Below are positions 1-45,780 of a stretch of DNA of 47,898 nt, in pieces. Location: NCBI GenBank assembly GCA_937923485.1, contig CALDUE010000017.1:1-47898 (forward strand), in the 5' to 3' direction. Under the pieces are notes generated by a model that saw only the letters and a list, made by a program, of their open reading frames with translations, was not told the DNA's origin and ran no database searches. Every line of letters begins with the position of its first letter. Within the stretch, counting starts at the first letter, position 1. Position numbers and translations under genes: made by a program. The stretch is from an uncultured Saprospiraceae bacterium (GTDB taxonomy: Bacteria; Bacteroidota; Bacteroidia; Chitinophagales; Saprospiraceae).

Positions 1-1016
1 AACCTCATATCCCCCTCAAACAACATTCGAATATCATTGATTCGATACTGTAACATCGCCTGGCGCTCAATGCCCATCCCGAAAGCAAAGCCTGAATACT
101 TGCTCGAATCGATGCCGCAATTTTCGAGGACGGCAGGATCAACCATACCGCAGCCGAGGATTTCTAGCCAGCCCGTTCCTTTGGTGATACGCTTGGCATG
201 CTCGTCACCGAGTCCCCACCAGACGTCAACCTCTGCACTTGGCTCGGTAAACGGGAAGTAACTCGGACGCATACGGATCTTGGCTTCCGGACCGTACATC
301 TCACGGGCGAAATGTAGAATCGTCTGCTTCAAATCTGCAAAGCTTACATCCTCATCGATGTACAAACCCTCGACTTGGTGGAACTGGGCGTGACTGCGTG
401 CAGAAATGGTTTCGTTGCGATACACACGCCCAGGAGCAATAATGCGAATCGGAGGCTTCTGTGTAGTCATCGCTCTTGACTGTACACTTGAAGTGTGTGT
501 GCGAAGCAGCAATTTTTCTGGACCTCGCAAATAGAAGGTGTCCTGCATGTCTCGAGCAGGGTGATCTTCTGGCGTGTTCATCGCCGTGAAGTTGTGCCAA
601 TCGTCTTCGATCTCACGATCCTCTTGAACCGCAAATCCGAGTCGCTCGAAAATATCAATGATGCGATCTAAGACTAGGTTGACTGGATGGCGCCCCCCAG
701 GCAGAATAGGTTCTCCTGGTCGAGTGAGGTCGAGCCCTTCTAGACTGGCGGCTGTTTTCGCTTTCGCAAAACCTGCCTTCGCCTCCTCCAAACGTTGTTC
801 AGCACTTTGCTTCACGCTGTTTACGAGTTGACCATAATCGCGACGCTGATCGCCAGGAATGTCTTTCATTGCCCCCATGAGGCCTTTGACTTTTCCTTTT
901 GAGCCCAGAAACTCAATGCGGAACTGTTCGGCACTATCCGCATCTGTTATTGATGCGGACTTAATTTCTTCGCCCAAAGCTCGGGCTACGGCAAAAACAT
1001 CTTGTTGGTCGGACAT
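1..1016 (-). CDS. pheS: Phenylalanine--tRNA ligase alpha subunit, 3' end missing
   Basis: Catalytic subunit of cytoplasmic phenylalanyl-tRNA synthetase, which works with PheT to charge tRNA-Phe. The reverse-strand frame opens with an ATG at 1016 (MSDQQDVFAVARALG) and runs off the window start after about 338 codons, so only a few C-terminal residues should be missing. An N-terminal coiled-coil arm (about residues 1-90) precedes the class II catalytic core. Diagnostic stretches are GRVYRNET near residue 193, FHQVEG near 209 and FGMGIERQAMLQYRINDIRM near 310-328 (class II motif 3). The arm contains a one-base-shorter version of the dispersed GTTTT hairpin at 759-772. Identification is very firm. 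Confidence 0.97.
   Translation of the reverse strand, partial: MSDQQDVFAVARALGEEIKSASITDADSAEQFRIEFLGSKGKVKGLMGAMKDIPGDQRRDYGQLVNSVKQSAEQRLEEAKAGFAKAKTAASLEGLDLTRPGEPILPGGRHPVNLVLDRIIDIFERLGFAVQEDREIEDDWHNFTAMNTPEDHPARDMQDTFYLRGPEKLLLRTHTSSVQSRAMTTQKPPIRIIAPGRVYRNETISARSHAQFHQVEGLYIDEDVSFADLKQTILHFAREMYGPEAKIRMRPSYFPFTEPSAEVDVWWGLGDEHAKRITKGTGWLEILGCGMVDPAVLENCGIDSSKYSGFAFGMGIERQAMLQYRINDIRMLFEGDMR
759..772 (-). repeat. GTTTT hairpin, shortened form
   Basis: GTTTTGCGAAAGCG on the minus strand in pheS: one base shorter than the consensus (T-GC-GAAA-GC-G). It encodes GFAKAK in sense. A similar shortened copy with a GCAA loop is at 42655-42668. Confidence 0.5.
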
Positions 1017-1278
1017 AAGCGCAGGCTGCTGGTTACAAGCGCCGAAGGTAAGCGGTTAGATTTTTCAATTCTACTCTTTTCAAAAGACCCTACAAAATGA
1101 CACTTTTTAGCCCTGTACACGCCACGAATGAAGCTCCTTATACGTTGTGCACCTAGCAACGCGTAAATTCGCCGCTCCCAAATACACTTTGAGGCACTAA
1201 TCACTATTTTCGATCAACAGGGACCAAGAGATAAAGCCCTCGAGTCGAGATATAGCTGGAGTTAACGATCAACCGAAT

Positions 1279-2673
1279 TTGAACACCGAAGCTTCCAAGG
1301 TTGATCAGCAATCACCGCCCAAGGGTTGGCCTCCAAAGTTGCACGTCTTTATGGTCGTGCTTGGCACCTTGCTGTGGATGTGGACTTTAACCATCAAAGC
1401 ACGCACCCCTTCGGGCGTGGCGTTAATTGGTTTAGGCTTACTATGCTTGATTCGCTTAGAGTGGGCACAACTTCCAATTCGGCTTTGGAAAGGTGCTTCA
1501 CAAGCCGTACTCAAGTTCATCAAAACCCCCGCCTACAGCCTACCCGCACTCTTTTTCTTGGGCTATTTGACAACCGCCTTGCTCGAAAATGTCAATGGTT
1601 TCTGGGGTGGCAGGTTAAGGCATAGTATCCAAGCTGTTGGGATTCCAGCAATGTTCTTCATTCTGAGTGCGATCTACATTCGTTACCGCGACCACTTATA
1701 CATGGCGATGGGACTATTTGCTTCAGCATCTGCACTTGGAGTGGGTCTGTATCTTGGAGCAAATAGTGACGCCATCTTCGTCGCTATCGGGCAAGGTCGC
1801 GTCGTCCCCACACCCAATCGCCACGTCCGCTATTCTATGGTCCTCGCTGTCACCGCAGTCTCCATGTGGTGGTATGCATTTTCAGGCTTCAGCAAGGAAC
1901 AGAAAGCAGATTCACCAGCAGATTGGCTCGGCTTACCACGCACTTGGCTCCGCATCTTTGCATTGAGCTTTGCTGTAATTTTGACTACCGTCCTTCACGT
2001 GATCGCGGTGCGCACAGGACTCGTCATGTTTTACATCGGTTTTGTGGTCGTGTTGACCAGAGTCCTTTTACCAAAGATCGGCAAGAAAGGCGTCGCACTT
2101 TCCTTAGCGGGCTGCATATTCTTGGCTGGTGTCGCCGTCACACAAATTCCTACGCTTTCGCAAAAACTTGCGTACGTCAGCTTCGACATAGAGCAGATCG
2201 GCAAAAAAAGTCGAAGGCTTTATTCTGATGCTGGTCGTTTTGCAAGTATTCGCGCTGGAATTGAAGTCATTAAAGCGTATCCGATATCTGGGGCTCCAAA
2301 TGGAGATTTTGCAGAAGCGATGCGTTTAGCTTACGCCAAAACCGGGAATCCAACGATGGTGCATCCTCCCCATAATCAATTCCTCTACAGTTGGGGAGCA
2401 GCGGGAATTCTAGGATTCTTAGGAGTCTGCGCGGTACTCATTGGCCCTTTGATCGACCGCACGTTTTGGCGAAAGCCCCTCCTCGCAGAAGGCTGGTTAA
2501 TGATCTCGGCGATGTTCATGATTGAGCTTCCCTTAGAATCTGACAATGGAATAGGAATCTGCCTCTTAGCACTTTATTTACCCAAAATTGGAGAAGGTCT
2601 GGCAAGAGTACAGCACAAAGAAGAAAGTGTAGGAGTTGAGCTTTCGCCAAAACCCGCTACCGAAACTTCGTAG
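1279..2673 (+). CDS. O-antigen ligase (WaaL/Wzy_C-like) polytopic membrane protein
   Basis: Probable glycan ligase or polymerase of the O-antigen ligase superfamily. These proteins join or polymerise undecaprenyl-linked polysaccharide at the periplasmic face. The 464-residue protein is almost entirely hydrophobic helices, with a loop in its C-terminal half carrying the family-like segment MVHPPHNQFLYSWGAAGILG (about residues 359-378). It resembles the H-x-N-x-hydrophobic-Gly pattern of Wzy_C proteins. The start given is TTG at 1279. An ATG at 1351 is the first in-frame alternative, but the Pro/Lys-rich N-terminus before the first helix reads like protein. The last 500 bases carry four copies of the GTTTT-GNRA hairpin. 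Whether it ligates O-antigen or polymerises another glycan cannot be told; no glycan cluster is adjacent. Confidence 0.75.
   Translation: MNTEASKVDQQSPPKGWPPKLHVFMVVLGTLLWMWTLTIKARTPSGVALIGLGLLCLIRLEWAQLPIRLWKGASQAVLKFIKTPAYSLPALFFLGYLTTALLENVNGFWGGRLRHSIQAVGIPAMFFILSAIYIRYRDHLYMAMGLFASASALGVGLYLGANSDAIFVAIGQGRVVPTPNRHVRYSMVLAVTAVSMWWYAFSGFSKEQKADSPADWLGLPRTWLRIFALSFAVILTTVLHVIAVRTGLVMFYIGFVVVLTRVLLPKIGKKGVALSLAGCIFLAGVAVTQIPTLSQKLAYVSFDIEQIGKKSRRLYSDAGRFASIRAGIEVIKAYPISGAPNGDFAEAMRLAYAKTGNPTMVHPPHNQFLYSWGAAGILGFLGVCAVLIGPLIDRTFWRKPLLAEGWLMISAMFMIELPLESDNGIGICLLALYLPKIGEGLARVQHKEESVGVELSPKPATETS
2153..2167 (-). repeat. GTTTT-GNRA hairpin copy, TGC/GCG stem
   Basis: GTTTT-TGC-GAAA-GCG; the outer pair is a T-G wobble. 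Antisense in the O-antigen-ligase-like gene, which reads LSQKLA here. Confidence 0.6.
2328..2342 (-). repeat. GTTTT-GNRA hairpin copy, GTAA loop
   Basis: GTTTT-GGC-GTAA-GCT; the only change from the commonest form is in the loop N position. Antisense; the gene reads AYAKTG. Confidence 0.75.
2463..2477 (+). repeat. GTTTT-GNRA hairpin copy, GGC/GCC stem
   Basis: GTTTT-GGC-GAAA-GCC, a fully paired copy. Sense; the gene reads TFWRKP. Confidence 0.85.
2639..2653 (-). repeat. GTTTT-GNRA hairpin copy, GGC/GCT stem
   Basis: GTTTT-GGC-GAAA-GCT (outer G-T wobble). Antisense in the last ten codons of the O-antigen-ligase-like gene, reading LSPKP. It is the fourth copy within 500 bases. Confidence 0.85.
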
Positions 2674-4785: not shown

Positions 4786-5757
4786 CTACTCCAATCCCTC
4801 TCTTACAAAATCATGGATATGAACCATCCCTGAATACTTGCCTTCCCCATCCACGAGGAGAAGTTGAGAGATATTATGCTTTTGCAAGAGCTCCAATCCT
4901 TTGACGGCCAACTGTGCATCATCTAGCGATCGGGGTGACGGCGACATCAGCTGTTTTGCCGAAAGGCGAACTACCTCAACGCCTCTACCCAAAGCACGAC
5001 GTAGATCACCATCTGTGATGATGCCGATGAGTTTTTGATCAGCATCGACTACCGCAGTGGCACCAAGACGCTTGGTCGTCATTTCAACCACCACCTGCTC
5101 CAAAGTCGCATCTGGACCTACTGACGGACAAGCATTTCTGCAACCTAGATCTGCCAAACGCATAAACAAGCGCTTGCCCAACGAACCGCCAGGATGATAC
5201 TGTGCGAAATCTTCAGGTTTAAAACCACGCAACGCCGTGAGCGAAGTTGCCAGAGCATCGCCCATCGCCATCTGAGAAATCGCACTTGCCGTCGGAGCGA
5301 GATTATGCAAGTCTGCCTCTTTTTGAACCGGAGTCAGCAAGACATAATCTGCTTGCATCGCCAGGTAGCTTTCGGGCTTGGACACCATCGCAACGATCTT
5401 GTTACCCAAGCGACGCACCAAAGGCAGTAAAGCTCGCATTTCTGACGTTTCACCGCTTTTCGACAGGGCAATGACGATGTCGTTGGTCTGCACCATCCCT
5501 AAATCTCCGTGAATCGCATCCGCACCGTGCATAAAAAGCGCAGGCGTACCCGTCGAATTTAAAGTGGCCGCAATCTTCTGAGCAACCAGCGCGCTCTTGC
5601 CTACACCAGTAATTACTACCCTACCACCACAGTGCTGCACAAGGCTTACCACTTCTGAAAATGAGGCATCTATGGAGTCATGCAAGGCTTGAAGCGTCTC
5701 CAGCTCGATTGCAAGCGTCCGCCTTGCGGTATCAAAAATCAAGCGTTGGTCTGACAT
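4786..5757 (-). CDS. kdsD: D-arabinose 5-phosphate isomerase (KdsD/KpsF type)
   Basis: Interconverts D-ribulose 5-phosphate and D-arabinose 5-phosphate, the first committed step to Kdo for LPS inner core or capsule. Residues about 40-180 form a sugar isomerase (SIS) domain with GVGKSALVAQKIAATLNSTG, the HGADAIHGDLGM loop with conserved histidines, and ALSKSGETSEM. Residues about 205-323 form two CBS domains (LIGIITDGDLRRAL and the final YSGMVHIHDFVREGL). The length of 323 residues is standard. The start is the ATG at 5757. It is divergent from recQ, with a strong inverted repeat in the shared 5' region. One GTTTT-GNRA hairpin lies antisense inside the gene (4953). Confidence 0.94.
   Translation of the reverse strand: MSDQRLIFDTARRTLAIELETLQALHDSIDASFSEVVSLVQHCGGRVVITGVGKSALVAQKIAATLNSTGTPALFMHGADAIHGDLGMVQTNDIVIALSKSGETSEMRALLPLVRRLGNKIVAMVSKPESYLAMQADYVLLTPVQKEADLHNLAPTASAISQMAMGDALATSLTALRGFKPEDFAQYHPGGSLGKRLFMRLADLGCRNACPSVGPDATLEQVVVEMTTKRLGATAVVDADQKLIGIITDGDLRRALGRGVEVVRLSAKQLMSPSPRSLDDAQLAVKGLELLQKHNISQLLLVDGEGKYSGMVHIHDFVREGLE
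4953..4967 (+). repeat. GTTTT-GNRA hairpin copy, GCC/GGC stem
   Basis: GTTTT-GCC-GAAA-GGC, fully paired. Antisense in kdsD, which reads RLSAKQ. Confidence 0.85.
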
Positions 5758-8245: not shown

Positions 8246-8671
8246 ATGACCATCCACATCGTTAACGGACCGAACCTCAACCTCGTTGGAAAGCGCGAAC
8301 CCGAGATTTATGGCAACGTTTCGCTCGATAATTATCTCGGCGATTTGGGTACCGAGTTTAAGGACCGTACAGATATCAAGGTGTTTCAGAGTAATGCGGA
8401 AGGAGAGTTGATCGACTACCTCCAAGAAATAGGTTTTGACGAAAGTGCAAAAATCATCGTCAATGCAGGTGCCCTCGGTCATACATCTCTAGGCCTTGGA
8501 GACTGCATTCGCGCCATTTCTGCCCCTGTAATCGACGTGCATATTTCCAATGTTTATGCAAGAGAGAGCTTTCGCCAAAACTCTTTTGTAACGCCTGCCG
8601 CAGTAGGCACCATCAGCGGCCTCGGGCTTGAGGGTTACCGACTAGCGATTGAGTGGTTTCTGAGAAAGTAG
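8246..8671 (+). CDS. aroQ: 3-dehydroquinate dehydratase, type II
   Basis: Removes water from 3-dehydroquinate in the shikimate pathway to aromatic amino acids. It has the type II signature NGPNLNLVGKREPEIYG at the N-terminus, with the catalytic Tyr of the flexible loop. The conserved NAGALGHTSLGL and the VIDVHISNVYARESFR segment with catalytic His and substrate-binding Ser/Arg follow. 141 residues is the usual size of the dodecameric enzyme. The gene stands alone, with no other shikimate genes nearby. It carries one perfect GTTTT-GNRA hairpin in antisense (8567) and one with an A-T middle pair in sense (8433). Confidence 0.96.
   Translation: MTIHIVNGPNLNLVGKREPEIYGNVSLDNYLGDLGTEFKDRTDIKVFQSNAEGELIDYLQEIGFDESAKIIVNAGALGHTSLGLGDCIRAISAPVIDVHISNVYARESFRQNSFVTPAAVGTISGLGLEGYRLAIEWFLRK
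8433..8447 (+). repeat. GTTTT-GNRA hairpin copy, GAC/GTG stem
   Basis: GTTTT-GAC-GAAA-GTG: the middle pair is A-T, while the outer pair is mismatched. Sense in aroQ, reading GFDESA. Confidence 0.5.
8567..8581 (-). repeat. GTTTT-GNRA hairpin copy, GGC/GCT stem
   Basis: GTTTT-GGC-GAAA-GCT. Antisense in aroQ, reading ESFRQN. Confidence 0.85.
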
Positions 8672-9311: not shown

Positions 9312-9724
9312 TTGAAAAAATTGGGCTCTAGTCGACGTAGCAATTTGCGCCATGCGTGGTTTATCTCTTTTTGCGTGGGAAGTTCTCTGCCTGTAAAGAT
9401 GAGCATGCCCTCGAGATATTGATCTCGTTGCTCAAGCCATGTGTATAAGCTGCTTTTTGTCAAACGATATGACTCGCGCATTCGCCGCTTTACGTGGTTA
9501 CGATCTGGTGCGCGCTTAAAATTTCGCTTGGATGCGACAAAGGCCATTTTGGCAATCGAATCTTGCTCGGCTGTTTTCGGTTGGAGCCGATAAACGAGCC
9601 TCAAAGGATACGCTTTTGCCGTCGGCGCTCCTGCAAACAACTCCCCTATCGCCTTGCGCGATTTCAGTCTTTCGCTTGCGCCAAAACTAAAATCCAACAA
9701 AATATTTTGATTTTTCTCGGTCAA
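9308..9724 (-). CDS. rnpA: Ribonuclease P protein component
   Basis: Small basic protein subunit of RNase P that helps the catalytic RNA bind pre-tRNA 5' leaders. The family hallmark is visible: ERLKSRKAIGELF at the N-terminus and the RNR-type motif KRNFKRAPDRNHVKRRMRESYR (about residues 69-90). The frame begins with TTG at 9724, as no suitably placed ATG exists. The 138-residue length is slightly above the usual 110-130. rpmH, often directly upstream, is absent here; radC is divergent instead. A GTTTT hairpin with a GCAA loop lies near the 5' end (9673-9687), encoding SFGASER. Confidence 0.93.
   Translation of the reverse strand: MTEKNQNILLDFSFGASERLKSRKAIGELFAGAPTAKAYPLRLVYRLQPKTAEQDSIAKMAFVASKRNFKRAPDRNHVKRRMRESYRLTKSSLYTWLEQRDQYLEGMLIFTGRELPTQKEINHAWRKLLRRLEPNFFK
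9673..9687 (-). repeat. GTTTT-GNRA hairpin copy, GCAA loop
   Basis: GTTTT-GGC-GCAA-GCG; the outer pair is mismatched. Sense in rnpA, reading SFGASE. An incomplete relative (TTTCGCCAAAAC) lies at 9991-10002 in radC. Confidence 0.7.
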
Positions 9725-10779: not shown

Positions 10780-12039
10780 ATGGAAGAAATCATCACAGCA
10801 TTCGACTATCCTTACGCTTGGCGTGCGCTGGCTGCCAGTGTTATGGTTGGATTGATGTGTGGTGCGCTTGGTTGCTTCATCGTCTTGCGCAACATGTCGA
10901 TGGTTGGCGATGCCTTGAGCCACGCCATTCTGCCTGGTGTCGTCGTGGCATTCATGGTGGTTGGCGGATATTCTGCCTTGGGCTTTTTCCTCGGGTCGGT
11001 AGCAGCAGGACTTGTCACTGCGGTGCTTATCACTTGGATTCAGCAGAAAGTCGCCACCAAAAATGATGCTGCCATTGGCATTGTCTTTACGACCATGTTC
11101 GCTCTTGGGGTCATGGGGATTTCATGGCTCAGTAAGAACGAGCATGCACATATTGATCTCAAGGACTTCCTCTTTGGCAATGTGCTTGGCGTATCAGATA
11201 GTGACCTGGTACTTACGGGAATGATTTGCCTGTATGTGCTTGCGAGTTTATACGTGTTTTACCGTCCACTCTTCGCTACGACTTTCCAGCCTGTAATTGC
11301 CGAAACGATGGGCGTCAACACGAAGTTGGTGCACTACTTCTTGATGCTCTTGCTTTCGTTTGCGGTTGTTGCTGCCTTGCAAACTGTAGGCGTCATCCTC
11401 GTAGTTGCTATGCTCATTACTCCAGCAGCAACAGGTCTTCTCCTGTCTCGGAGATTGCCAAAAGTGATCATGATTGCCTCGCTAGTTGGTGTGCTTGCGG
11501 CAGTATTTGGGCTGGCCATTGCCTTCGCATTCAAGACGACTCCTGGTCCAGCAATGGCAGTGATGGCGAGTTTCTTGTACGGCTTAGCAGTATTCTTCGC
11601 GCCCGAACGCGGATTGGTGTTTAGGTTCTACCGCAAGCGTACTCGCGAACGTCGCATTGAAATTGAAGATGTTATCAAACAGGGCGCTCGATTAGAGCAG
11701 AATGGGGCTATGACAATCGATGGCTTGGTCGAGAAGACAGTTTTGCCGAAAGGCGTTGTAACGTCAAGATTGAAAACCCTTGCCAAGCGAGGATTGGTCA
11801 CCCTGCAACCGCTGGCCATGACCAATCTTGGCAAGCTTGAAGCCTTCAAACTTGTGCGTGCACACCGCCTATATGAGACCTTCTTGGTCGATCGCCTCGG
11901 TCTCAGCGAAGATCAAATCCACGATGAAGCTGAGCGCTACGAGCACCTGCTTACCGATGAACTGCTTGATGAAATCGATCAGGAATTGGGGTATCCAGAG
12001 ACGGATCCACATGGTAGTCCGATTCCTAAGCGGGGGTAA
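10780..12039 (+). CDS. Metal ABC transporter permease fused to a DtxR/MntR-like regulator
   Basis: The N-terminal part (about residues 10-275) is an ABC-3 family permease for Mn/Zn/Fe uptake, with about eight helices and the conserved NMSMVGDALSHAILPGV loop. The C-terminal part adds a winged helix (about 290-355) and an iron-dependent-repressor dimerisation/metal-binding domain. The latter shows RAHRLYETFLVDRLG, DEAERYEHLL and a terminal YPETDPHGSPIP, as in MntR/IdeR. The fusion is known in Bacteroidota and could let cytoplasmic metal feed back on transport or transcription (inference). No ATPase or binding protein is adjacent; a matching pair lacking a permease lies at 26.8-28.6 kb. It contains one GTTTT-GNRA hairpin (11740). 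Confidence 0.9.
   Translation: MEEIITAFDYPYAWRALAASVMVGLMCGALGCFIVLRNMSMVGDALSHAILPGVVVAFMVVGGYSALGFFLGSVAAGLVTAVLITWIQQKVATKNDAAIGIVFTTMFALGVMGISWLSKNEHAHIDLKDFLFGNVLGVSDSDLVLTGMICLYVLASLYVFYRPLFATTFQPVIAETMGVNTKLVHYFLMLLLSFAVVAALQTVGVILVVAMLITPAATGLLLSRRLPKVIMIASLVGVLAAVFGLAIAFAFKTTPGPAMAVMASFLYGLAVFFAPERGLVFRFYRKRTRERRIEIEDVIKQGARLEQNGAMTIDGLVEKTVLPKGVVTSRLKTLAKRGLVTLQPLAMTNLGKLEAFKLVRAHRLYETFLVDRLGLSEDQIHDEAERYEHLLTDELLDEIDQELGYPETDPHGSPIPKRG
11740..11754 (+). repeat. GTTTT-GNRA hairpin copy, GCC/GGC stem
   Basis: GTTTT-GCC-GAAA-GGC, fully paired. Sense in the permease/DtxR gene, reading TVLPKGV within the winged helix. Confidence 0.85.
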
Positions 12040-12281: not shown

Positions 12282-12317
12282 TTCAAGGAGGCAACGGACG
12301 CTTTAGCACAAAAAAAG

Positions 12318-26811: not shown

Positions 26812-27837
26812 GTGAGGAATCCTTTGTTATTTCTTGTTAGCGTTTGTTTGCTTTCGGCTTTCGCCAAAACTAGTTCTGCGCAGGCGGTCGAAGATGACCG
26901 TCCTCTCGTGGTGAGTACTGCGAGCATTTTTGCCGACATGGCCGAGGTAATTGCAGGTAATGTGATTCGAGTCGAAAGCATCGTCCCACTTGGCGGTGAT
27001 CCACATACTTATGAACCAACGCCTGAGGCAGCCAAGCTGGTAACTTCTGCCGATCTGATTTTACGCAATGGGCTAACCTTCGAAGGCTGGCTCAATGAGT
27101 TGATCAAGTATTCGGGTACTGAGGCTCCTGTTACCTTAATTACTAAAGGCATCGAACCGCTCGGATCTATTGCCTATGCAGGTAGTAGTGATCCCCACGC
27201 ATGGATGAATGCAGGCAATGGGCTGATCTACGCAAAGAATATCTATAGAGCGCTCAGCCTCACTTTTCCCGAGTATGCTGATCAATTTGAGTTTAACTAT
27301 CGCCTATACAAAAGCGATATCGAACGACTTGATGCATGGATCAGGGACACGGTGCAGGTTATCCCAAAGACACAACGCGTGCTCATCACTTCACACGATG
27401 CCTTTCAATATTTTGGAGCGGCTTATGGACTTCGACTCGAAGCCATCCTTGGAACGAGCACCGATGCAGACGCACAGACTAGCGACGTAGCTCGCGTAAT
27501 ACAGCTGATCGTCGATAGCAGAGTACCAGCGGTCTTCATTGAGACCACCGTCAACCCGAAACTTATTCGACAGATCGCAGACGATACCGGCGCACGCATA
27601 GGAGGAAGCCTCTATAGTGATTCCTTGGGAGATAAAGACAGTCCGGCGAGTACCTATATCAAGATGCTCCAATTCAATACTCGGACCATTGTAGCGGCCT
27701 TGAGCGGTTCGAACACGCAACTGAGTGCTGACGATGGGTTTGAGGAAGATGAAGGCAGTATTCCACTGCTTGTCGGTACGCTGCTTGTTGTTTTTGCCTT
27801 AGGCTTCATCATCATGTTTCGATATGGACAAAAGTGA
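26812..27837 (+). CDS. Metal-binding protein of an ABC uptake system (ZnuA/TroA family)
   Basis: Solute-binding protein for Zn or Mn uptake. A signal peptide (about 1-24) is followed by the cluster A-I fold with ligands H65 in GGDPHTYEPTP, H129 in DPHAWMN, H195 in SHDAFQYFG and D270 in YSDSLG. Three His plus Asp is the set seen in ZnuA and TroA. It lacks the His-rich loop common in ZnuA. Unusually, it ends in a hydrophobic helix and short basic tail (IPLLVGTLLVVFALGFIIMFRYGQK, cut by position 341), suggesting inner-membrane anchoring. It starts with GTG at 26812, just after the creD fold-back. The ATPase gene follows after 4 bases, and no permease follows. Confidence 0.92.
   Translation: MRNPLLFLVSVCLLSAFAKTSSAQAVEDDRPLVVSTASIFADMAEVIAGNVIRVESIVPLGGDPHTYEPTPEAAKLVTSADLILRNGLTFEGWLNELIKYSGTEAPVTLITKGIEPLGSIAYAGSSDPHAWMNAGNGLIYAKNIYRALSLTFPEYADQFEFNYRLYKSDIERLDAWIRDTVQVIPKTQRVLITSHDAFQYFGAAYGLRLEAILGTSTDADAQTSDVARVIQLIVDSRVPAVFIETTVNPKLIRQIADDTGARIGGSLYSDSLGDKDSPASTYIKMLQFNTRTIVAALSGSNTQLSADDGFEEDEGSIPLLVGTLLVVFALGFIIMFRYGQK
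26856..26870 (-). repeat. GTTTT-GNRA hairpin copy in a signal peptide
   Basis: GTTTT-GGC-GAAA-GCC, fully paired. Antisense in the signal-peptide codons of the metal-binding protein, reading SAFAKT. Confidence 0.85.
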
Positions 27838-31778: not shown

Positions 31779-32867
31779 TTACTCAAGTAGGCCTTGAAAA
31801 AAAGCATCCATGTTTTTGACCGTCGTGGCGTGACTCAGCGGCCCCGCTAATCTTTGTTTTGCTGCAGCGGCTAGGTTTTGGCGTAAGCTGGAATCTTGAA
31901 TCAACTGCTCCATGGCTTGAGCTAAGGCAGAAGCGTTCCTAGGTGGAACTTTCCAACCTGATTCACCATGGATGACCAGTTCCTCGTTCCCTGGAAGATC
32001 AGTAAGCAATAAGGTAGTCCCCAGGGCCATGGCTTCTACTGCTGCTTTGGTGAGCGATTCACCACGAACAGAAGGAAGGATTTTCACGTCGGCCGCAGCA
32101 ACCAAGCGATAGACATCATCTCGAAACCCGGGATAGATGATACGTTCTGGATAACCAGATGCAGTTGCCAATTTGCGATGCTCTTCAGTATCCATTCGAC
32201 GCCCGCATAATACTAGATGAGCATTAAGTTTAGGATTAATTTGACCCATGGCTGTCAATAAATACGGGACGCCCTTGAATTTGGAGGCATTCGCCACACA
32301 GATGAGCATTGGAGCATCGAGCGGAATGCCAAGTGTGGTTTTGTCAATTGGTTCAATACCCTCATACCAAGCAAGGTCGTGCCCCTTATTGACCACCGTC
32401 GAAATGTCTTTACCGAACTTGTTGGATTGAATGTGTCGTTGAACCCCGATGTTGTTACACAGGATTGCGTCTACACGTGGATTAAGAATCTTGAGGTAGT
32501 TAAAAGGGTCGTACCAGTTGACATCCGCTGCGCAACCACGATAAACGGCAACTTTCACGGGAAGTCCTTTTGCTGCCCGAATGCCGTTTGCGATCGCACG
32601 GCTATTGTAAAGCATAAGGACATCGTACTTCTGCGCTAGAAGCTCTTGGCGGATAAGCGCTGTGGCTTCATCGTCCCTGCGTTTTACGGGATGACCGAAT
32701 AGGACTTTAATGCCGCTTTCGCGAAAACGAGTGACGTATTCAGATTCTCCATGGGTAATGATGGTGATCTCATACCCCAGTTTTTTGAGCGAGAGGTAAA
32801 TCTCAGCTTCTGGGCGAGTCGAAGACATGTGGCCGTAATAGGAAACAACAAGAATTCGAGGCAACAC
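31779..32867 (-). CDS. Glycosyltransferase family 4 protein
   Basis: GT-B fold glycosyltransferase. The N-terminal domain begins RILVVSYYGHMSSTRPEAEIYLSLKKLGYEI. The C-terminal nucleotide-sugar domain shows MLICVANASKFKGVPYLLTAM, the PSVRGESLTKAAVEAMALGTTLLLTD segment with the E-x7-E motif, and NEELVIHGESGWKVPP. Acceptor and donor are unknown, though the protein is likely involved in LPS, capsule or protein glycans. The start is GTG at 32867 (MLPRILVV). No other glycan genes are beside it. Two hairpins of the GTTTT type lie within the gene: one with a GTAA loop (31875) and one whose outer pair is C-G instead of G-C (32714). Confidence 0.88.
   Translation of the reverse strand: MLPRILVVSYYGHMSSTRPEAEIYLSLKKLGYEITIITHGESEYVTRFRESGIKVLFGHPVKRRDDEATALIRQELLAQKYDVLMLYNSRAIANGIRAAKGLPVKVAVYRGCAADVNWYDPFNYLKILNPRVDAILCNNIGVQRHIQSNKFGKDISTVVNKGHDLAWYEGIEPIDKTTLGIPLDAPMLICVANASKFKGVPYLLTAMGQINPKLNAHLVLCGRRMDTEEHRKLATASGYPERIIYPGFRDDVYRLVAAADVKILPSVRGESLTKAAVEAMALGTTLLLTDLPGNEELVIHGESGWKVPPRNASALAQAMEQLIQDSSLRQNLAAAAKQRLAGPLSHATTVKNMDAFFQGLLE
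31875..31889 (+). repeat. GTTTT-GNRA hairpin copy, GTAA loop
   Basis: GTTTT-GGC-GTAA-GCT. Antisense in the glycosyltransferase gene, reading SLRQNLA. Confidence 0.75.
32714..32728 (-). repeat. GTTTT-GNRA hairpin copy, CGC/GCG stem
   Basis: GTTTT-CGC-GAAA-GCG: the outer pair is C-G instead of G-C, a compensated change. Sense in the glycosyltransferase gene, reading RFRESG. Confidence 0.75.
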
Positions 32868-33702: not shown

Positions 33703-34419
33703 TTAAAACCAGCCTTTACGGACGCAATCCACCACCGTAGCGGTCATGTTTGCGTGCGCCGACTTTTGCAGAATATGTTGCCTGTGCGTACGAACAGTAT
33801 CTACACTAATGAAAAGAGATTCAGCTATTTGAGCGGTCTTCTTACCCTCCGCGAGAAGTTTTAGAATTTCAAGTTGTCGAGAGCTAAACGGGCAGACATC
33901 ACTATCATGCTCGAAGCCTTCCAGTCTGAGTACTCCTAAGCTTTCCTGTTCTTCTTGGCCATAGACGCGAATAATCTTTACAGGATCTATTACGGGAGTA
34001 GTGATGTCCGTCTCGGTCACAGACATCTTTGAGATGGGGCTTTCATATGTCCCGGCTGGAGTAATGACGTGTTTTATAAGACGTGTCTTACCTGCACTAC
34101 ATACTTTTCGAAATTGAATACTTGCGCTAATGTGTTTGTGTTTCCGAGCTGAAGAGTCAAATTTTTTGACCACAGCTTCACGAGCAGCAATCACAAATTC
34201 TTTATCGTCGGGATGTATCTCCTCGTTAAGCCTAGCTGGATGTTGCGCTGAATTTAGATGTGGGTTTTGGCGAAAGCTGGTTAATTCTGGCAGAAATTCA
34301 GTTAAGAATTTACAGGTTGAAAAAATGTACTTGACAGGTTCTTGAGAATCCTTCTTACTTATATCTGCCTGAGCATGATACATAGTAGGCTTGCCGATCA
34401 GCTGAGTTATATTTTTCAT
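33703..34419 (-). CDS. LuxR-type response regulator-like transcription factor
   Basis: 238-residue regulator with a C-terminal LuxR/GerE helix-turn-helix (about residues 175-235). The key stretches are FSSRQLEILKLLAEGKKTAQIAESLF and ISVDTVRTHRQHILQK. The N-terminal 165 residues do not look like a receiver domain, with no DD...K phospho-acceptor set. They resemble a PAS-like sensor (NEEIHPDDKEFVIAAREAVVKKF). I start it at the ATG at 34419 (MKNITQLIGKP); the frame is open 52 codons upstream but the residues there look random. No histidine kinase is adjacent. The relA/spoT-type gene is divergent. A GTTTT-GNRA hairpin lies in the variable N-terminal part (34264, SFRQN). Confidence 0.88.
   Translation of the reverse strand: MKNITQLIGKPTMYHAQADISKKDSQEPVKYIFSTCKFLTEFLPELTSFRQNPHLNSAQHPARLNEEIHPDDKEFVIAAREAVVKKFDSSARKHKHISASIQFRKVCSAGKTRLIKHVITPAGTYESPISKMSVTETDITTPVIDPVKIIRVYGQEEQESLGVLRLEGFEHDSDVCPFSSRQLEILKLLAEGKKTAQIAESLFISVDTVRTHRQHILQKSAHANMTATVVDCVRKGWF
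34264..34278 (+). repeat. GTTTT-GNRA hairpin copy, GGC/GCT stem
   Basis: GTTTT-GGC-GAAA-GCT. Antisense in the LuxR-type gene, reading TSFRQNP. Confidence 0.85.
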
Positions 34420-36973: not shown

Positions 36974-38443
36974 ATGTCCAACGCAAAGCTCGACCGCACG
37001 TCACCAACGGAGATCAACATCACCGTTACTCTCCAACCCGAACAATATATCAAACCTGCGAAAGCAGAATTGAATAAGCTTGCCCGAACAGCCCAGATCA
37101 AAGGGTTTCGACCTGGCAAAGTTCCAGCCTCTTACATGAAAAAACTGTACGGAGAACGTACCGTGATCGAGACTGTCAGTAAGCAAGTTGACCAAGCCAT
37201 CAACGACCTCATTAAAGAGGAAAAACTTGAGATTTTTGGTCAGCTACAACCTATCAATGAGCCTGACTTCGAAGGAATCAACTTAGATTCAGACAAGACG
37301 CTTGAATTTAAGTACACTGGTGGTTTGATGCCAACAGCAGAAGATGTTGACGTTAAAGGCCTCAAAAAAATTAGTCGCTTCGAAGTTCAACTGAGCGATG
37401 AAGAAGCGGCTCAGAAACTTGACGATGCACGAAAGCGATTCGTTGATTATACGGAGCGCGACAACATAGAGACAGAAGAAGACTTCGCAACCTTGGTGAT
37501 CACCGATGCCGAGCTCGACGCGAAGATGCTGGCTGAAGTTCCAGAAGGGGAAGAGGCTCCCAAAGAGTCACGACAGCGCTACTTCCTACGTCCGAATGAT
37601 TTGCGTACGAAAACCGCTCAGAAAAAGCTTCTTAAAAAGAAGAAGGGTGATCAGGTAACGCTCTCTCTCAAAGACCTCAACGACGATATCAAAGAGCGTT
37701 TCGATAAAGCTATCGAAGCAGACGGAGAAGCAACGTTTACCATCACTAAGGTGGATCGTGAATCGATGCCAGAGCTCAACGAAGAAACTTATAAAAAAAT
37801 CTTCGGTGAAGAAACGACGGTGAGCACCGAGCAAGAAGCCAAGGATGAATTCAGTCGTCGCTTTGCTGAAAATTCTCAGTCCAACCTCGACGATTTTGCA
37901 CTAGAGCTATTGATCGACAAGCTTGTTGAGACTAACGAGATCGATGTCCCACTGTCGGCTATCAAGCATCGCCTTGAACAAGCACGACAAGAAGAAGCTG
38001 AAGCAGCTAAAAAGGAAGAGCGTGAGCCAGAATATGCACATGAGCTGACGGAAGCTGATCGTTTTGGATTAGCTCGGAGATTGAAGTGGATGGCCTTTCG
38101 GCAAAACCTCATCAAAGCAAATGAGGTGGAACTAGACCGCGAGGATATTGATGCAGGCATTGAAGCCAATTACATCAAGCAGCTCTCTGGCATGGGAATC
38201 GATCCTGAGCAATATCGTGCGCAGTTCTTCGACATGTTTAAGAAGAACTTGCTGGAGAATCGCGAGCAAGTCATGGAAATGACGGATAGCCTCATCAATG
38301 CAAAACTCCTTCTAAAGCTTGAGTCTGAGGATGTACTTGGTAAGAAAAAGGTGGTTAGCGAAAAGGAATTCTCCGACATCATCGAAGCTTATAATAAGGA
38401 CGCTTCTTCTAAACTAGACAAGTTGCGCGAGCAAAAACTCTAA
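36974..38443 (+). CDS. tig: Trigger factor
   Basis: Ribosome-bound chaperone that receives nascent chains. The N-terminal ribosome-binding signature is GFRPGKVPASYMKKLYG (about residue 44). A divergent middle PPIase-like domain follows (about 155-255, with FVDYTERDNIETEEDFATLVITD and KKGDQVTLSLKDL), then the long helical C-terminal chaperone domain with extended Glu/Lys stretches. 489 residues is typical of Bacteroidota, which have weak FKBP motifs. No clpP/clpX follows, unlike many bacteria. It starts 78 bases after the RSH gene on the same strand and ends in a strong terminator. A perfect GTTTT-GNRA hairpin lies antisense at 38093 (AFRQNL). Confidence 0.94.
   Translation: MSNAKLDRTSPTEINITVTLQPEQYIKPAKAELNKLARTAQIKGFRPGKVPASYMKKLYGERTVIETVSKQVDQAINDLIKEEKLEIFGQLQPINEPDFEGINLDSDKTLEFKYTGGLMPTAEDVDVKGLKKISRFEVQLSDEEAAQKLDDARKRFVDYTERDNIETEEDFATLVITDAELDAKMLAEVPEGEEAPKESRQRYFLRPNDLRTKTAQKKLLKKKKGDQVTLSLKDLNDDIKERFDKAIEADGEATFTITKVDRESMPELNEETYKKIFGEETTVSTEQEAKDEFSRRFAENSQSNLDDFALELLIDKLVETNEIDVPLSAIKHRLEQARQEEAEAAKKEEREPEYAHELTEADRFGLARRLKWMAFRQNLIKANEVELDREDIDAGIEANYIKQLSGMGIDPEQYRAQFFDMFKKNLLENREQVMEMTDSLINAKLLLKLESEDVLGKKKVVSEKEFSDIIEAYNKDASSKLDKLREQKL
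38093..38107 (-). repeat. GTTTT-GNRA hairpin copy, GCC/GGC stem
   Basis: GTTTT-GCC-GAAA-GGC, fully paired. Antisense in tig, reading MAFRQNL. Confidence 0.85.
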
Positions 38444-41396: not shown

Positions 41397-42971
41397 ATGG
41401 CTACTTACCTCCGCTTTTCAGCCCTTTTTGCTGGGCTTTTTCTTTTCGTCAGCCTTTCGGCAAAACCTATTCCGACCTTCTCAAGTCCTTTTGGCGTTGC
41501 AGAGATACCTTCGATTGCGACTCAAGTCGATAGCCTTCCCACGGCAGCATCGATTGAGGTTTTGGCGAAAGCTGCAATGGACAGCTTCGATGTGCCAGGC
41601 TTTGCGATAGGTATCGTTAAAGACGGCAAAGTTGTACTTTCCAAAGGCTACGGCGTACGTAAAATAGGAACGGATGAGGCGGTAGATGCAAATACGCTTT
41701 TCGCGATCGCTTCCAATACCAAAGCCTTCGTTGGCACGATGGCTGCGATGTTGGAAGATGAAGGAAAGCTATCGCTAAAAGATCCCGTTTCGCAGTATCT
41801 ACCCTACCTCAAATTTCCTAGTGAAGAGGTTACTAAACTCGCCATCGTCGAAGATTTGATGACCCACAGAACCGGTCTCGGTACTTTCAAGGGAGACCAT
41901 TTGTGGTTTAAGCGAAAGATCAATCCGAGGGAAGTTTTGACGAAAGTCAGAGACCTGGAACTTGAATATCCGTTCCGCGCAGGCTATGGATACAGCAATG
42001 TGATGTTCATCGCGGCGGGCGAGGTGATCGGGAAGGTGGCAGGCAAGCCGTGGTCGGAAGCAGTCGAAACGCAAATCTTCGCGCCTTTGGGAATGAATCG
42101 TACTGTTACACGCGTTCGTGATCTCCCCAAAGATAACTTCGCATACGGGCACATCACGCGTCAAGAAAACAATTCAATTCCTCCAGTTGCTTGGGATGCT
42201 CCAGGCGCCGCAGGAGGAATCTGGTCGAGCAGCAACGATATGCTCAAATGGATTAGTTGTAATTTGAATGACGGCGTCTATAAGGGTGATACTGTTTGGA
42301 GCAAACAGGTGCAACGCACCACCATGCGTCCAAAAAATGTCATCGGCGCGGCTCCAGGATTCACCTCCTATGGTCTTGGTTGGTTTCTATCAAATGACGA
42401 TGGACATTTGATTGCCGGACATGGAGGAGGCTATGACGGGATGTACTCACGTGTCGTATTAGTTCCAGATTTAAATTTAGGAATCGTCGTTTTAACTAAC
42501 AGTATGACAGGATTTCCTCGAGCTTTAAGTACTGAAATTGTTAACCAGTACATGGGCAAAAGCTCTGCGACTTGGCTTGATGATGGATTGAAAGGTGAGC
42601 GGGCTGGACACGCAAATTGGTTCACTCATCAGGACAGTGTATCATATTTACTCTCGCTTGCGCAAAACAAGCCTGACGCTCATCCTTTAGTCCTCGGCAC
42701 GTATCGAGATGCCACCTACGGGACCTTTACCGTAACTGCTGGAGCAGGCAAAAACCTTGAGCTTAGCTTTCCGCAAGCACCGCAATTAGACGCGCTGCTG
42801 CAACCAGTCGGAGGTGATCACTACAAATTGACCTGGCGAGAACGGCATGCTTGGGTTGACCAAGGATTAGCCTTCACGGAACACAAAGATGGCAAGCTTG
42901 CTTTGCGTCTTTATATCCCAAACGAGGATATTTTCTATGATAGCATTTTGGCGGTTAAAGTTTCTGAGTAG
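41397..42971 (+). CDS. Serine hydrolase (class C beta-lactamase/penicillin-binding-protein-like) with C-terminal DUF3471-like region
   Basis: Exported serine hydrolase of the AmpC/EstB/DD-peptidase superfamily. The signal peptide (about 1-23, FAGLFLFVSLSAK) precedes S106-x-x-K109 in ASNTKAF, Y199-S-N201 in GYSNVMF and the third motif H342-G-G in GHGGGYDGM. The active-site triad is complete. The last 110 residues (LGTYRDATYGTFTVTAG) form a small beta domain as in DUF3471. True beta-lactam hydrolysis is not implied; family members include D-aminopeptidases and esterases. The ATG at 41397 is chosen (MATYLRFSALFA). Three GTTTT-GNRA hairpins and a degenerate one lie in this gene. Confidence 0.9.
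   Translation: MATYLRFSALFAGLFLFVSLSAKPIPTFSSPFGVAEIPSIATQVDSLPTAASIEVLAKAAMDSFDVPGFAIGIVKDGKVVLSKGYGVRKIGTDEAVDANTLFAIASNTKAFVGTMAAMLEDEGKLSLKDPVSQYLPYLKFPSEEVTKLAIVEDLMTHRTGLGTFKGDHLWFKRKINPREVLTKVRDLELEYPFRAGYGYSNVMFIAAGEVIGKVAGKPWSEAVETQIFAPLGMNRTVTRVRDLPKDNFAYGHITRQENNSIPPVAWDAPGAAGGIWSSSNDMLKWISCNLNDGVYKGDTVWSKQVQRTTMRPKNVIGAAPGFTSYGLGWFLSNDDGHLIAGHGGGYDGMYSRVVLVPDLNLGIVVLTNSMTGFPRALSTEIVNQYMGKSSATWLDDGLKGERAGHANWFTHQDSVSYLLSLAQNKPDAHPLVLGTYRDATYGTFTVTAGAGKNLELSFPQAPQLDALLQPVGGDHYKLTWRERHAWVDQGLAFTEHKDGKLALRLYIPNEDIFYDSILAVKVSE
41452..41466 (-). repeat. GTTTT-GNRA hairpin copy in a signal peptide
   Basis: GTTTT-GCC-GAAA-GGC, fully paired. Antisense in the serine hydrolase signal peptide, reading SLSAKP. 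Confidence 0.85.
41559..41573 (+). repeat. GTTTT-GNRA hairpin copy, GGC/GCT stem
   Basis: GTTTT-GGC-GAAA-GCT. Sense in the serine hydrolase gene, reading EVLAKAA. It faces the 41452 copy, 92 bases away. Confidence 0.85.
41934..41948 (+). repeat. GTTTT-GNRA hairpin copy, GAC/GTC stem
   Basis: GTTTT-GAC-GAAA-GTC: the middle pair is A-T with both bases changed. Sense in the serine hydrolase gene, reading EVLTKVR. Confidence 0.7.
42655..42668 (-). repeat. GTTTT hairpin, shortened form, GCAA loop
   Basis: GTTTTGCGCAAGCG on the minus strand in the serine hydrolase gene (LAQNKP). It is one base shorter than the consensus, like the copy at 759. Confidence 0.45.
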
Positions 42972-44203: not shown

Positions 44204-44454
44204 TAAGAAGGTTTGGTGTAGTGAGAAGTGCAAGACGTTGATATTCAATTGAACACAACACCTGCAAGGTACTTTTAAGACGAAGTTATGCATTAAAGTC
44301 ACACTCTATACATAAAAATTACTTAACTGCGAGCCGTGGCGCTAACCCTCTACAGCTGTCAGCTCTTGAGCATATGCGTGAACAGGATGCTTCACTTTGC
44401 ACGGTGCGATTGCAGCACTTCTAAAGAGTGCCGCTACGTTTATGTGAATTGTGT

Positions 44455-45780
44455 CTACTTCACTAATACCCTTGCACTCGAAGAACCTTTATTCGTTTGA
44501 ATCCGAACGATATACCATCCTGCTTGCACTGCGCTTATTTGCCAATAGGTATTGCTTGGGCGGACGTCAACCTGTTTTCCCGAAAGGGTAAACACTTCAA
44601 CCTTTTGCACTTCCTGTCCAGCAGTTTCAATCTGGAAAGTGCGATCGGCGCCAAGTAGTGTAGGATAAATCTTAGGCCTATCTGCACCAGTGACTTGAGA
44701 AGTAGAAGAAACAAGGCTAATGGTATACACAAAAATCTCTGTACAGTCGGCTACATCACGACTGGTGGTGATTTGTTGACCGTTTGAGACGACTTCCTCT
44801 CCAAAGAGAATTTCTCCAAGCACTGCCATGGTGTCGAGTCGAAAAGTGTCGGGAGGGGTAATGGTAAGTTCTTCCAGTTGCGCACAGCCTGCTGCATCCA
44901 CACTGTTGAACACATAAGTCCCTGGCAGGATAAAACTGGTGTCTTGAAAAGGGATTGAAGCTCCTTCTAGAAAACATTCAGTAGCTCGAATAGTAGCAGA
45001 CTGACCTGCGTGGAGATATGCAATTTGATCGCAGGCGCTAGGGCTAGTTGAAATAGCTTCATAAAACCCAGGAGTATCTATGGCTTGCCCATTCCACATA
45101 AACGTTACTCCAGGTTCTAAACAGACGTCTTCGCGTTGCACTATGGGAGTGATACAATCATCTGTTTTAAAGACGCCGTGAATGCCTGAGATGAAGGTGT
45201 TGCCATTGAGGTGTTGTAGGTTGTCGTACCCGCTGACGGTTTGGGTGTAATCCTGCCAAAACTCATCGAGGCACGTCTCACCAGAGTTTCTTGCAATAAA
45301 AGATGGAATATTAACGGGGTCCTCGATCAGACTCTGTCCATCCCATTGAATCTTAAACAACGATGTAAAGGGTCCTCCCGACAAATTTCTATTGGCTATT
45401 GAAGTAAATAAGGCAGCATCTCTACGTTGGATCGGTCCGCTTAGAGCAAAATTTCCAAGAAAATCTAGCGTCTGAATATCATAAACAAACGCTTGGTAGA
45501 CCGTGCGCATCGGACCAAATTCAGTCTGAATCTTTTGTACAACATAGACATCTTCAAGTAGTAGCGGTGTTGAATTAGATTCATCTGAAAGTGTTACTAC
45601 TTGATTACCTCTTTTGATGAAAGCCGTGCGATTCTCTGAGTAAAGTGTGTCTATACCTCTCACAAGGATTTCAAGATCCGAAAATTGACCTGACATAGGG
45701 GTGAGCGAACCTAACTCTAAACGGAAATTTTTTGAGCCTTCTCGGACTACACGCGCATCATCTCCTCCATCGGAAATCAT
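44455..45780 (-). CDS. T9SS sorting-domain protein, C-terminal part after an apparent frameshift
   Basis: The 441-residue open frame has no signal peptide and begins mid-protein (MISDGGDDARVVREGSKNF). The region about 225-350 contains Cys-containing Ig-like/SprB-like repeats. It ends in a type A T9SS sorting domain (KVEVFTLSGKQVDVRPSNTYWQISAVQAGWYIVRIQTN). Reading back across its start in the same frame gives plausible protein, AIFATSPSGTTEVLIDEL, which meets the frame upstream after one extra base. So this is probably the second half of one 867-residue secreted protein whose first half is 45792-47057. A GTTTT hairpin with an inverted stem pair lies in the sorting domain (44574). Confidence 0.8.
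   Translation of the reverse strand: MISDGGDDARVVREGSKNFRLELGSLTPMSGQFSDLEILVRGIDTLYSENRTAFIKRGNQVVTLSDESNSTPLLLEDVYVVQKIQTEFGPMRTVYQAFVYDIQTLDFLGNFALSGPIQRRDAALFTSIANRNLSGGPFTSLFKIQWDGQSLIEDPVNIPSFIARNSGETCLDEFWQDYTQTVSGYDNLQHLNGNTFISGIHGVFKTDDCITPIVQREDVCLEPGVTFMWNGQAIDTPGFYEAISTSPSACDQIAYLHAGQSATIRATECFLEGASIPFQDTSFILPGTYVFNSVDAAGCAQLEELTITPPDTFRLDTMAVLGEILFGEEVVSNGQQITTSRDVADCTEIFVYTISLVSSTSQVTGADRPKIYPTLLGADRTFQIETAGQEVQKVEVFTLSGKQVDVRPSNTYWQISAVQAGWYIVRIQTNKGSSSARVLVK
44574..44588 (+). repeat. GTTTT-GNRA hairpin copy, CCC/GGG stem
   Basis: GTTTT-CCC-GAAA-GGG: the outer pair is flipped from G-C to C-G. Antisense in the T9SS sorting-domain part, reading TLSGKQV. Confidence 0.65.

Follow-up and report, generated by a model that had tools for sequence, protein, structure and literature searches.

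Uptake sequences of the Neisseriaceae (DUS) and Pasteurellaceae (USS) are short, occur in many copies on both strands and in coding DNA, and are evenly spread. Chi sites are strand-specific, dispersed and clade-specific; they are also shorter, coded by sequence and skewed to one replication strand. REP elements with their RAYT transposases consist of a hairpin after a short 5' guide and have clade variants. DUS are described as forming clade dialects around a fixed core (PMC3630211) and as showing a sharp drop at one mismatch (PMC1939737); ComP, a type IV minor pilin with a preference for mediating dsDNA transformation, binds them, and in gonococci, according to the same source, ssDNA with one of the two DUS strands is preferred (PMC12061091, citing Duffin and Seifert 2012). 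The cyanobacterial HIP1 is presented as a highly iterated, fixed palindromic word, for which some lineages have others instead, and its abundance tracks methyltransferases (PMC4390886). For DNA mini-hairpins with GNNA loops, high Tm, nuclease resistance and protection from 3' exonucleases are reported (PMC4686876).

We analyzed a 47,898-nucleotide stretch of DNA from an uncultured Saprospiraceae bacterium (the window), in which a sequence-only reading had noticed a dispersed 15-base element, GTTTT followed by a GNRA-capped mini-hairpin. Like DUS and USS, this element is short and strongly over-represented, lies in many copies on both strands, coding DNA included, is evenly spread, has clade-specific dialects around a constant core and shows a sharp drop at one mismatch. 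It differs in that it is coded by a covarying hairpin and not by a fixed sequence with no fold, and in that its hosts have no clear PilB/PilT match; our best guess is that it is analogous to DUS/USS and not a member of that class. With Chi sites it shares strand specificity, dispersal and clade specificity, but it shows no strand polarity on five long contigs, is longer and is coded by structure. As in REP elements, the hairpin follows a short 5' guide and has clade variants, whereas the copies are not preferentially intergenic, not inserted and not linked to Y1 proteins, and five of 12 carrier genomes have no match to a cognate Y1 transposase. Like HIP1, the element is highly iterated genome-wide with lineage alternatives, but it has two covarying positions and an asymmetric 5' arm, and its copies in 609 kb are not a fixed dsDNA palindrome. 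The comparisons with REP and HIP1 made in the sequence-only reading therefore do not fit. Nor do the copies show the sense orientation and GNRA loop of RNA GNRA hairpins. The core NCGNAAGN' has G...A loop ends on a stem of two pairs and belongs to the class of d(GCGAAAGC) and other GNA-GNNA mini-hairpins, which are known as synthetic oligonucleotides. We know of no natural genome-wide use of such mini-hairpins, and none appears among the literature matches listed.

Copy number and fold of the element

The relaxed pattern GTTTTNNCGN[A/C]AG has exactly 24 matches in the window, and the sequence described is present at all 24 sites that had been claimed, with the claimed split of 13 plus and 11 minus (Table 1). 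The claimed feature start, position 759, is a 2-mismatch look-alike and is excluded as a member. Exact GTTTTGNCGNAAG occurs 21 times in the window against a mean of 0.03 and a maximum of 1 in 200 first-order Markov simulations; when up to 2 mismatches are allowed, 36 matches stand against a mean of 17.4 and a largest value of 31 in 100 dinucleotide shuffles, in line with the claimed excess over chance. In the genome (3.31 Mb, 85% complete), GTTTTGNCGNAAG has 1,072 copies (546 plus, 526 minus) versus 3 for the reversed pattern used as control (0 plus, 3 minus), and the ORFs of 609 kb hold 165 elements versus a mean of 4.1 and a maximum of 9 in 30 synonymous-codon shuffles. The refuting outcome named in the sequence-only reading, counts no higher than in shuffles or matches in the window alone, did not come about. 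The existence of the element is confirmed, with stronger evidence than first described, and the idea of a genome-wide DNA-level element is borne out by its presence on both gene strands and its stem covariation.

Table 1. Copies of the element in the window
Coordinates	Strand	Element	Basis or context
2153..2167	-	GTTTTTGCGAAAGCG	sequence
2328..2342	-	GTTTTGGCGTAAGCT	sequence
2463..2477	+	GTTTTGGCGAAAGCC	sequence
2639..2653	-	GTTTTGGCGAAAGCT	sequence
4953..4967	+	GTTTTGCCGAAAGGC	sequence
8433..8447	+	GTTTTGACGAAAGTG	sequence
8567..8581	-	GTTTTGGCGAAAGCT	sequence
9673..9687	-	GTTTTGGCGCAAGCG	sequence
11740..11754	+	GTTTTGCCGAAAGGC	sequence
14315..14329	+	GTTTTGACGGAAGTC	within recG gene; sister species retains
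17234..17248	+	GTTTTGGCGAAAGCG	close to trypsin-like/PDZ protease gene start; sister species retains
18740..18754	-	GTTTTGGCGAAAGCC	inter-ORF; sister species retains
21105..21119	+	GTTTTGCCGAAAGGC	sister species retains
24543..24557	-	GTTTTGCCGGAAGGC	sister species lacks it (substitution)
26134..26148	+	GTTTTGGCGCAAGCT	sequence
26856..26870	-	GTTTTGGCGAAAGCC	antisense in znuA-like gene; sister species retains
31875..31889	+	GTTTTGGCGTAAGCT	sequence
32714..32728	-	GTTTTCGCGAAAGCG	sequence
34264..34278	+	GTTTTGGCGAAAGCT	sequence
38093..38107	-	GTTTTGCCGAAAGGC	within trigger factor gene
41452..41466	-	GTTTTGCCGAAAGGC	sequence
41559..41573	+	GTTTTGGCGAAAGCT	sequence
41934..41948	+	GTTTTGACGAAAGTC	sequence
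44574..44588	+	GTTTTCCCGAAAGGG	sequence

All 24 window copies pair positions 7 and 14 and have the closing pair C8-G13. The 3-base matching stem of the sequence-only reading stands for the 13 copies with full 3-bp Watson-Crick pairing and not for the remainder. Over 609 kb, positions 7 and 14 form a Watson-Crick pair in 291 of 298 copies (the pair is missing in 7), all four pairs G-C, C-G, A-T and T-A being used, and they do so in 128 of 129 copies of a smaller set from G000; matches near stretch ends were dropped from this pairing set (0/129 in G000, 1/38 in G001). Positions 6 and 15 are associated as well (chi-square p ~2e-10 on 278 of 291 copies, after omission of 13 that have T at position 6). 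By contrast, the 5' GTTTT, the closing pair (C-G in 291 copies versus G-C in 3) and the loop ends are nearly constant in the 609 kb. The loop is GNAA in 279 copies, GNCA in 12 and GNGA or GNTA in 0, giving GN(A/C)A; since GNGA is absent, the GNRA label was wrong in detail. Loop tally and closing pair fit the GNNA mini-hairpin chemistry as it is described in PMC4686876. In a standard DNA energy model, copies with a 2-bp stem fold no better than shuffles; an RNA fold of the element is also possible. Because the variable letters are nearly always pairable and copies lie on both strands within genes, a signal read on single-stranded DNA is suggested, and the single-strand recognition raised in the sequence-only reading stays live on these grounds.

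Distribution, conservation and placement

Carriage in the Saprospiraceae is patchy: 12 of 199 family genomes have at least 400 matches. Nine genomes of seven genera share the hairpin and differ in the 5' arms; GTTTT is the arm of the source genus, and six further genera combine the same hairpin with other arms. The dialects of G029, G061, G181, G104 and G110 rest on 10 to 30 copies each, and part of the dialect scan imposed TTT in the 5' arm. No comparable excess was found in 81 genomes from other families of the order, and 395 genomes of the phylum are mostly at background level. Of additional note, many members of a genus of the same class (g148) show an excess, with up to 217 matches versus 23, and one g179 genome has 84 versus 6. 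Of 19 paired matches in G590 (g148, 160 kb), 18 are in ORFs, where a single sense phase accounts for 10, a pattern not seen for the Saprospiraceae element; G286 (51 kb) has 0 paired matches and G582 (g179, 120 kb) has 3. We treat this excess as a signal different from the Saprospiraceae element. Among the matches listed in the open literature (titles and abstract beginnings, with subscription papers and preprints outside it), none describes the element.

Alignment with a sister species (77.6% identity) covers 41 copies, of which 37 remain at the same site, compared with 8.5% for random windows and 4 of 57 for permuted words (alignments of <150 bases, or overlapped by a better one, were dropped). 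Among the loci fetched by RecG search, L041 was the one analyzed. Where the sister species differs, there are no gaps within the element; one pair change is compensatory, and one conserved site became G-T. In its behavior the element matches a maintained DNA signal whose code is a single-strand fold, and not a transposed repeat or an RNA motif.

ORFs hold 251 of 291 elements and cover 88% of the DNA, so that coding and intergenic DNA are hit in proportion; all six codon phases are used, and the flanks of the copies are mutually unrelated. Relative to genes, 101 copies are sense and 150 antisense in G000 (p 0.002), and 76 and 68 in G001 (p 0.56); codon phase, gene decile and sense/antisense ratio show no consistent pattern in these two genomes. 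Strand counts on the five long contigs are 13/11, 22/24, 12/9, 7/7 and 4/5, favoring strand balance by 14 natural-log units against a 75:25 skew; a Chi-type orientation skew is thus absent on these contigs of an incomplete genome. The copies are evenly spaced, 5-kb counts being under-dispersed (index 0.70, p 0.007). Same-strand spacing is clearly regular in the G000 discovery stretches (CV 0.67 vs 0.93), as expected under ssDNA recognition. A pre-registered replicate went in the same direction without significance (same-strand CV 0.86 vs 0.94, fraction 0.19; opposite-strand neighbors 60/98, p 0.12), and the regularity is absent in G027 and in G155+G104. Element count was also weakly related to 4-mer atypicality (rho -0.18, p 0.07).

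Carrier proteins and possible functions

ComEC is present in 12 of 12 carriers and 14 of 14 low-copy relatives, DprA in 10 of 12 and 14 of 14; both DprA-less genomes, G001 and G154, are carriers. Since low-copy relatives have ComEC and DprA just as often, and these two carriers do without DprA, the machinery is no predictor of the element. The sole strong PilB/PilT-family (PF00437) match in the 12 carriers is a 94-position fragment in G001; G029 reaches 25.3 bits against a cut-off of 24.9 in an 892-residue frame, and other carriers are weaker. With no clear PilB/PilT match in most carriers, canonical pilus-based uptake is not borne out. No candidate hairpin receptor was found in the carriers.

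The main rival, which we consider unlikely, is a Chi-like recombination signal, in which an AddAB-type helicase-nuclease reads the unwound strand and the hairpin halts degradation and starts RecA loading. Such a signal would also be strand-specific and act at the ssDNA level, and the resistance of mini-hairpins to 3' exonucleases described in PMC4686876 fits a halt of this kind. None of the 12 carriers has a RecC (PF04257) match, which makes AddAB-type enzymes the likely alternative. PDDEXK_1 is found in open frames of 899-953 residues in 7 of 12 carriers and 4 of 14 non-carriers (G072, G022, G014 and G198), and G161 adds a frame of 563 residues; this association is a weak, post hoc lead, and G000, an 85% complete genome, has no match. 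The strand balance of the long contigs speaks against a Chi-like signal, and we know of no Chi with a covarying stem. The structural and conservation evidence is compatible with any ssDNA-level function, so a site for another single-strand- or hairpin-binding protein, serving replication restart, chromosome organization or phage-defense self-marking, may be considered, if doubtfully; this reading comes without a candidate protein, and the orientation bias along contigs that is usual for replication-coupled functions is missing.

It is very improbable that the element is a mobile REP-like one, its 5' guide and hairpin recognized by a Y1 (RAYT) transposase. The guide, the hairpin and the clade-specific variants recall REP/RAYT, and Y1_Tnp matches occur in 7 of 12 carriers; however, five high-copy genomes (G029, G155, G161, G110 and G193) have none and 7 of 14 non-carriers have one, so that Y1 matches are not linked to carriage. 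The proportionate presence in coding DNA, the gap-free absences in place and the unrelated flanks are likewise contrary to the transposase-like spread once suggested, and a transposed repeat is contradicted by location, in-place conservation and Y1 distribution. We give even less credence to a GNRA tetraloop hairpin acting in transcripts: RNA can adopt the fold, but antisense copies are about as many as sense copies (150 vs 101 in G000), GNGA loops are missing and all six phases are occupied, which contradict an RNA motif. As for chance, a bias in codons or amino acids, or an artifact of mutation, nothing was found in favor, and shuffles, the reversed-pattern control, covariation and orthologous conservation rule them out for practical purposes.

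We propose, with a probability of about 0.42, that the element is a dispersed, maintained self-label coded by an ssDNA mini-hairpin, a function that we infer, and probably one in natural transformation. A shade more tentatively, this label could be a genome-wide self-recognition signal coded by its fold, with a genus-specific 5' arm, and read on single strands in a type-IV-pilus-independent transformation (or strand-processing) pathway. The element would act on DNA in its single-stranded state: its C(GNAA)G portion would fold into a very stable, nuclease-resistant mini-hairpin, and the 5' arm would supply species identity. The single-stranded stage would most likely be natural transformation, in which ssDNA passes via ComEC to DprA and RecA. 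Tagged DNA may be taken in, protected or recombined better; such a bias would hold tags in position across a population and would allow each genus to diverge towards a 5' dialect of its own. A standard type IV pilus is an improbable reader of the tag. In the Bacteroidota, Riemerella anatipestifer is reported to transform with ComEC, DprA, ComF, RecA and essential proteins whose function is unknown (PMC8459023), and R. columbina to prefer its own DNA (PMC7965970); our literature search found no transformation reported for the carrier organisms.

Whereas Chi, HIP1 and the uptake sequences are all words, in the Saprospiraceae element it is a structure in DNA that is under selection. Because this structure is selected within genes and on both strands, selection must act at a single-stranded stage of genomic DNA. 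To our knowledge, a fold-coded genome-wide self-recognition signal would be the first of its kind. It would give a possible natural role to the DNA mini-hairpin chemistry known in vitro, and a handle on how Bacteroidota with no recognizable pilus motor might distinguish self DNA from that of other organisms.

Abundance and anatomy of the hairpin element

All 24 window sites at which the sequence-only reading placed GTTTT followed by a mini-hairpin are present as written, 13 on the plus strand and 11 on the minus strand, and the pattern GTTTTNNCGN[A/C]AG has 24 matches there. Its estimate of a density far above chance agrees with the 21 exact GTTTTGNCGNAAG copies in the window, against 0.03 expected (200 simulations). 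The proposal that the element is genome-wide is borne out by 546 plus-strand and 526 minus-strand copies in the window's own genome, G000 (3.31 Mb, 216 contigs, 85% complete), where the reversed pattern occurs 0 and 3 times. The excess also withstands the codon-preserving check: ORFs hold 165 exact copies, whereas synonymous-codon shuffles average 4.1. The cluster of four in the window (table) is one among eight spots with four elements per 1.5 kb in the 609 kb of G000 examined.

Numbering the element from 1 to 15, positions 7 and 14 are complementary in 128 of 129 GTTTTGNCGNAAG copies (21 stretches, 363 kb of G000), as G-C (91), C-G (22), A-T (13) or T-A (2), and they are paired in 291 of 298 relaxed copies from the 609 kb; this covariation in the stem shows that pairing matters. 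Position 6 (G 212, A 44, C 22, T 13) is associated with position 15, C15 occurring mostly with G6 and G15 mostly with A6 or C6; 6/15 is a weaker third stem pair. C-G closes the stem in 291 copies and G-C in 3, and at the remaining fixed positions each non-consensus base is found in 0-6 copies versus 129 for the consensus. The loop is not GNRA, as had been read, since GNAA (279) is joined by GNCA (12), and GNGA and GNTA are both at 0; variants in loop length are almost lacking. A shortened arm, GTTT, is seen in 24 copies, 18 of them paired, and the 3' side is mildly A-rich.

In a standard DNA fold model, which probably underrates the special mini-hairpin loop, copies with a 3-bp G-C stem reach -2.3 kcal/mol and those with a 2-bp stem -0.7 kcal/mol, no better than shuffles. 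The core, NCGNAAGN, is a mini-hairpin of the d(GCGAAAGC) type, described as having a GNA or GNNA loop and at least two G-C pairs, and as heat-stable, nuclease-resistant and, when at a 3' end, a guard against 3' exonucleases (PMC4686876). The fixed letters are those needed by the DNA mini-hairpin, plus the 5' arm.

Placement, conservation and spacing

In the 609 kb, ORFs make up 88% of the DNA and contain 251 of 291 copies (101 sense, 150 antisense), with all six phases occupied; the pattern is the same in the sister species G001 (76:68) and in G027, another high-copy genome (83:83). An RNA or protein cause is strongly disfavoured by this ORF-proportional placement, by the use of both gene strands and six phases, and by the excess over synonymous shuffles. 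Because the pairing lies inside 15 genomic bases and occurs on either gene strand, it points to a single-stranded DNA stage.

The alignment of G000 with G001 (86.6 kb, 77.6% identity) retains 37 of 41 copies at the same place; the corresponding figures are 8.5% for random windows, scored at the fixed positions, and 4 of 57 for permuted words. Four copies in G000 and six in G001 are partnerless, none with a gap inside the 15 bases. Eleven of the 37 shared copies are altered within the element, solely at positions 6, 7, 10, 14 and 15, while flanks differ at 23.6%; one carries a compensatory double change (GGC..GCC to GCC..GGC), and in one the 7/14 pair goes from G-C to G-T. The conserved positions and restricted changes show an element that is long established at its sites and is kept by purifying selection or drive. 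Separately, the window's 351-bp tandem repeat (table) matches the sister species at 92%, adjoining alignments being at 74-79%, and has no Rfam match at gathering score; it may represent a structured, conserved RNA or else a family of repeats.

Counts per 5-kb window vary less than expected at random (index 0.70, p 0.007). Same-strand copies were evenly spaced in the initial G000 stretches (CV 0.67 vs 0.93), those of both strands together were not (0.91 vs 0.96), and alternating-strand neighbours were in excess (100/158). With the prediction fixed beforehand, 20 new G000 stretches showed same-strand evenness in the same direction, not significantly; pooled G000 values, discovery data included, are CV 0.75 vs 0.95 and 160/257 alternating neighbours. 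Alternation is seen in G001 (35/53, p 0.03) and not in G027 or G155+G104, and the strand-wise pattern carries little weight as evidence. The second-longest element-free gap (9.2 kb) contains EF-Tu and rpoB.

Distribution in the family and 5' arms

TTTNGCGNAAGC occurs in at least 400 copies in 12 of 199 family genomes, from seven genera (404-1,689 vs 7-21 for the reversed control), and in 155-266 copies in 17 more; the remainder are at background or modest excess. Among 81 genomes from other families of the order, the highest count was 97 against a control of 68, and a few exceeded a low control by a factor of two to three (e.g. G634, 34 vs 10). In the phylum sample, genus g148, of the same class, has a mild excess (G590, 217 vs 23), and 10 of 18 G590 ORF matches share one sense reading phase; this signal looks different from the Saprospiraceae element and is unexplained.

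Stretches from nine of the 12 high-copy genomes show the same hairpin with differing 5' arms (table). One of the two arm surveys, that including G155, imposed TTT; unconstrained 10-mer counts are consistent with the arms (TTTGCCGAAA in G155, 13 vs 0.5 expected at 59% GC; CTTGCGCAAA in G027, 35 vs 0.8). With no arm imposed, positions 7/14 are paired in 322 of 610 NCGNAAGN words in G027 (C-G 119, G-C 119, A-T 43, T-A 41); with TTT imposed, in 52 of 59 in G155.

Arm variants, PDDEXK_1 frames and located features
Feature	Genome or stretch	Contig or positions	Remarks
5' arm GTTTT then G	G000, G001		own genus
5' arm (T)TTT then T	G027		
5' arm [T/A]TTT then G	G029		
5' arm [T/A]TTT then G or T	G155		
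5' arm ATTT then G	G104, G061		
5' arm TTTTT then G	G181		10 copies
5' arm C(T)TTTT then G	G110		20 copies
PDDEXK_1 frame	G029	C15	
PDDEXK_1 frame	G155	C221	
PDDEXK_1 frame	G104	C176	
PDDEXK_1 frame	G061	C76	
PDDEXK_1 frame	G154	C277	
PDDEXK_1 frame	G027	C43	
PDDEXK_1 frame	G181	C321	
Element cluster	window	2153-2653	four elements in 501 bp, within O-antigen ligase-like gene
351-bp tandem repeat	window	12185-12910	2.1 copies, without long ORF
Pieces related to 351-bp repeat	L202	8147-8839	about 90%
Longest element-free gap	L191	1-15335	15.3 kb, at contig end, over two giant ORFs (1745 and 2718 aa); second (profile-searched) has CHU_C, SprB and PKD domains

Candidate readers and possible role

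We compared the 12 high-copy genomes (carriers) with 14 low-copy relatives (non-carriers). ComEC (26/26 genomes) and DprA (24/26, both misses being carriers) fail to discriminate, since they are present in carriers and non-carriers alike. For PF00437 (PilB/PilT family), G001 has the sole strong match, a fragment of 94 positions; scores right at the cut-off occur in G029 and G014, and other genomes fall below it. None of the 12 carriers has a RecC match, against 3 of 14 non-carriers. PDDEXK_1 matches open frames of 899-953 residues in seven carriers, those on the tabulated contigs having 903-946, and frames of similar length in four non-carriers (G072, G022, G014, G198), the scores of G014 and G198 being much stronger than the others; carrier G161 has a 563-residue frame. 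As a candidate AddB-like reader, these frames are at most a weak lead.

The element is like REP in shape and unlike it in location and spread, and the suggested link to a Y1 transposase fails, as Y1 presence does not follow the element. It behaves like DUS but differs from it in recognition mode and known machinery. None of the paper titles or abstract openings among those listed in literature searches describes it. Among the stages exposing either strand are transformation and replication, as well as recombination at broken ends. No orientation bias was seen in long contigs, which disfavours a replication-polar role and an ordinary Chi role; a Chi-like signal is our second choice. Riemerella anatipestifer (Bacteroidota) is described as having unique transformation machinery that includes essential proteins of unknown function (PMC8459023), and R. 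columbina as favouring its own DNA, the basis of which, by that paper's account, has so far been sought by k-mer count only (PMC7965970). Given these reports and the lack of orientation bias, the reading we prefer, by analogy, is that the element would serve as an uptake-like self-label read as single-stranded DNA; since the 5' arm differs between genera, it may be the arm that carries identity.
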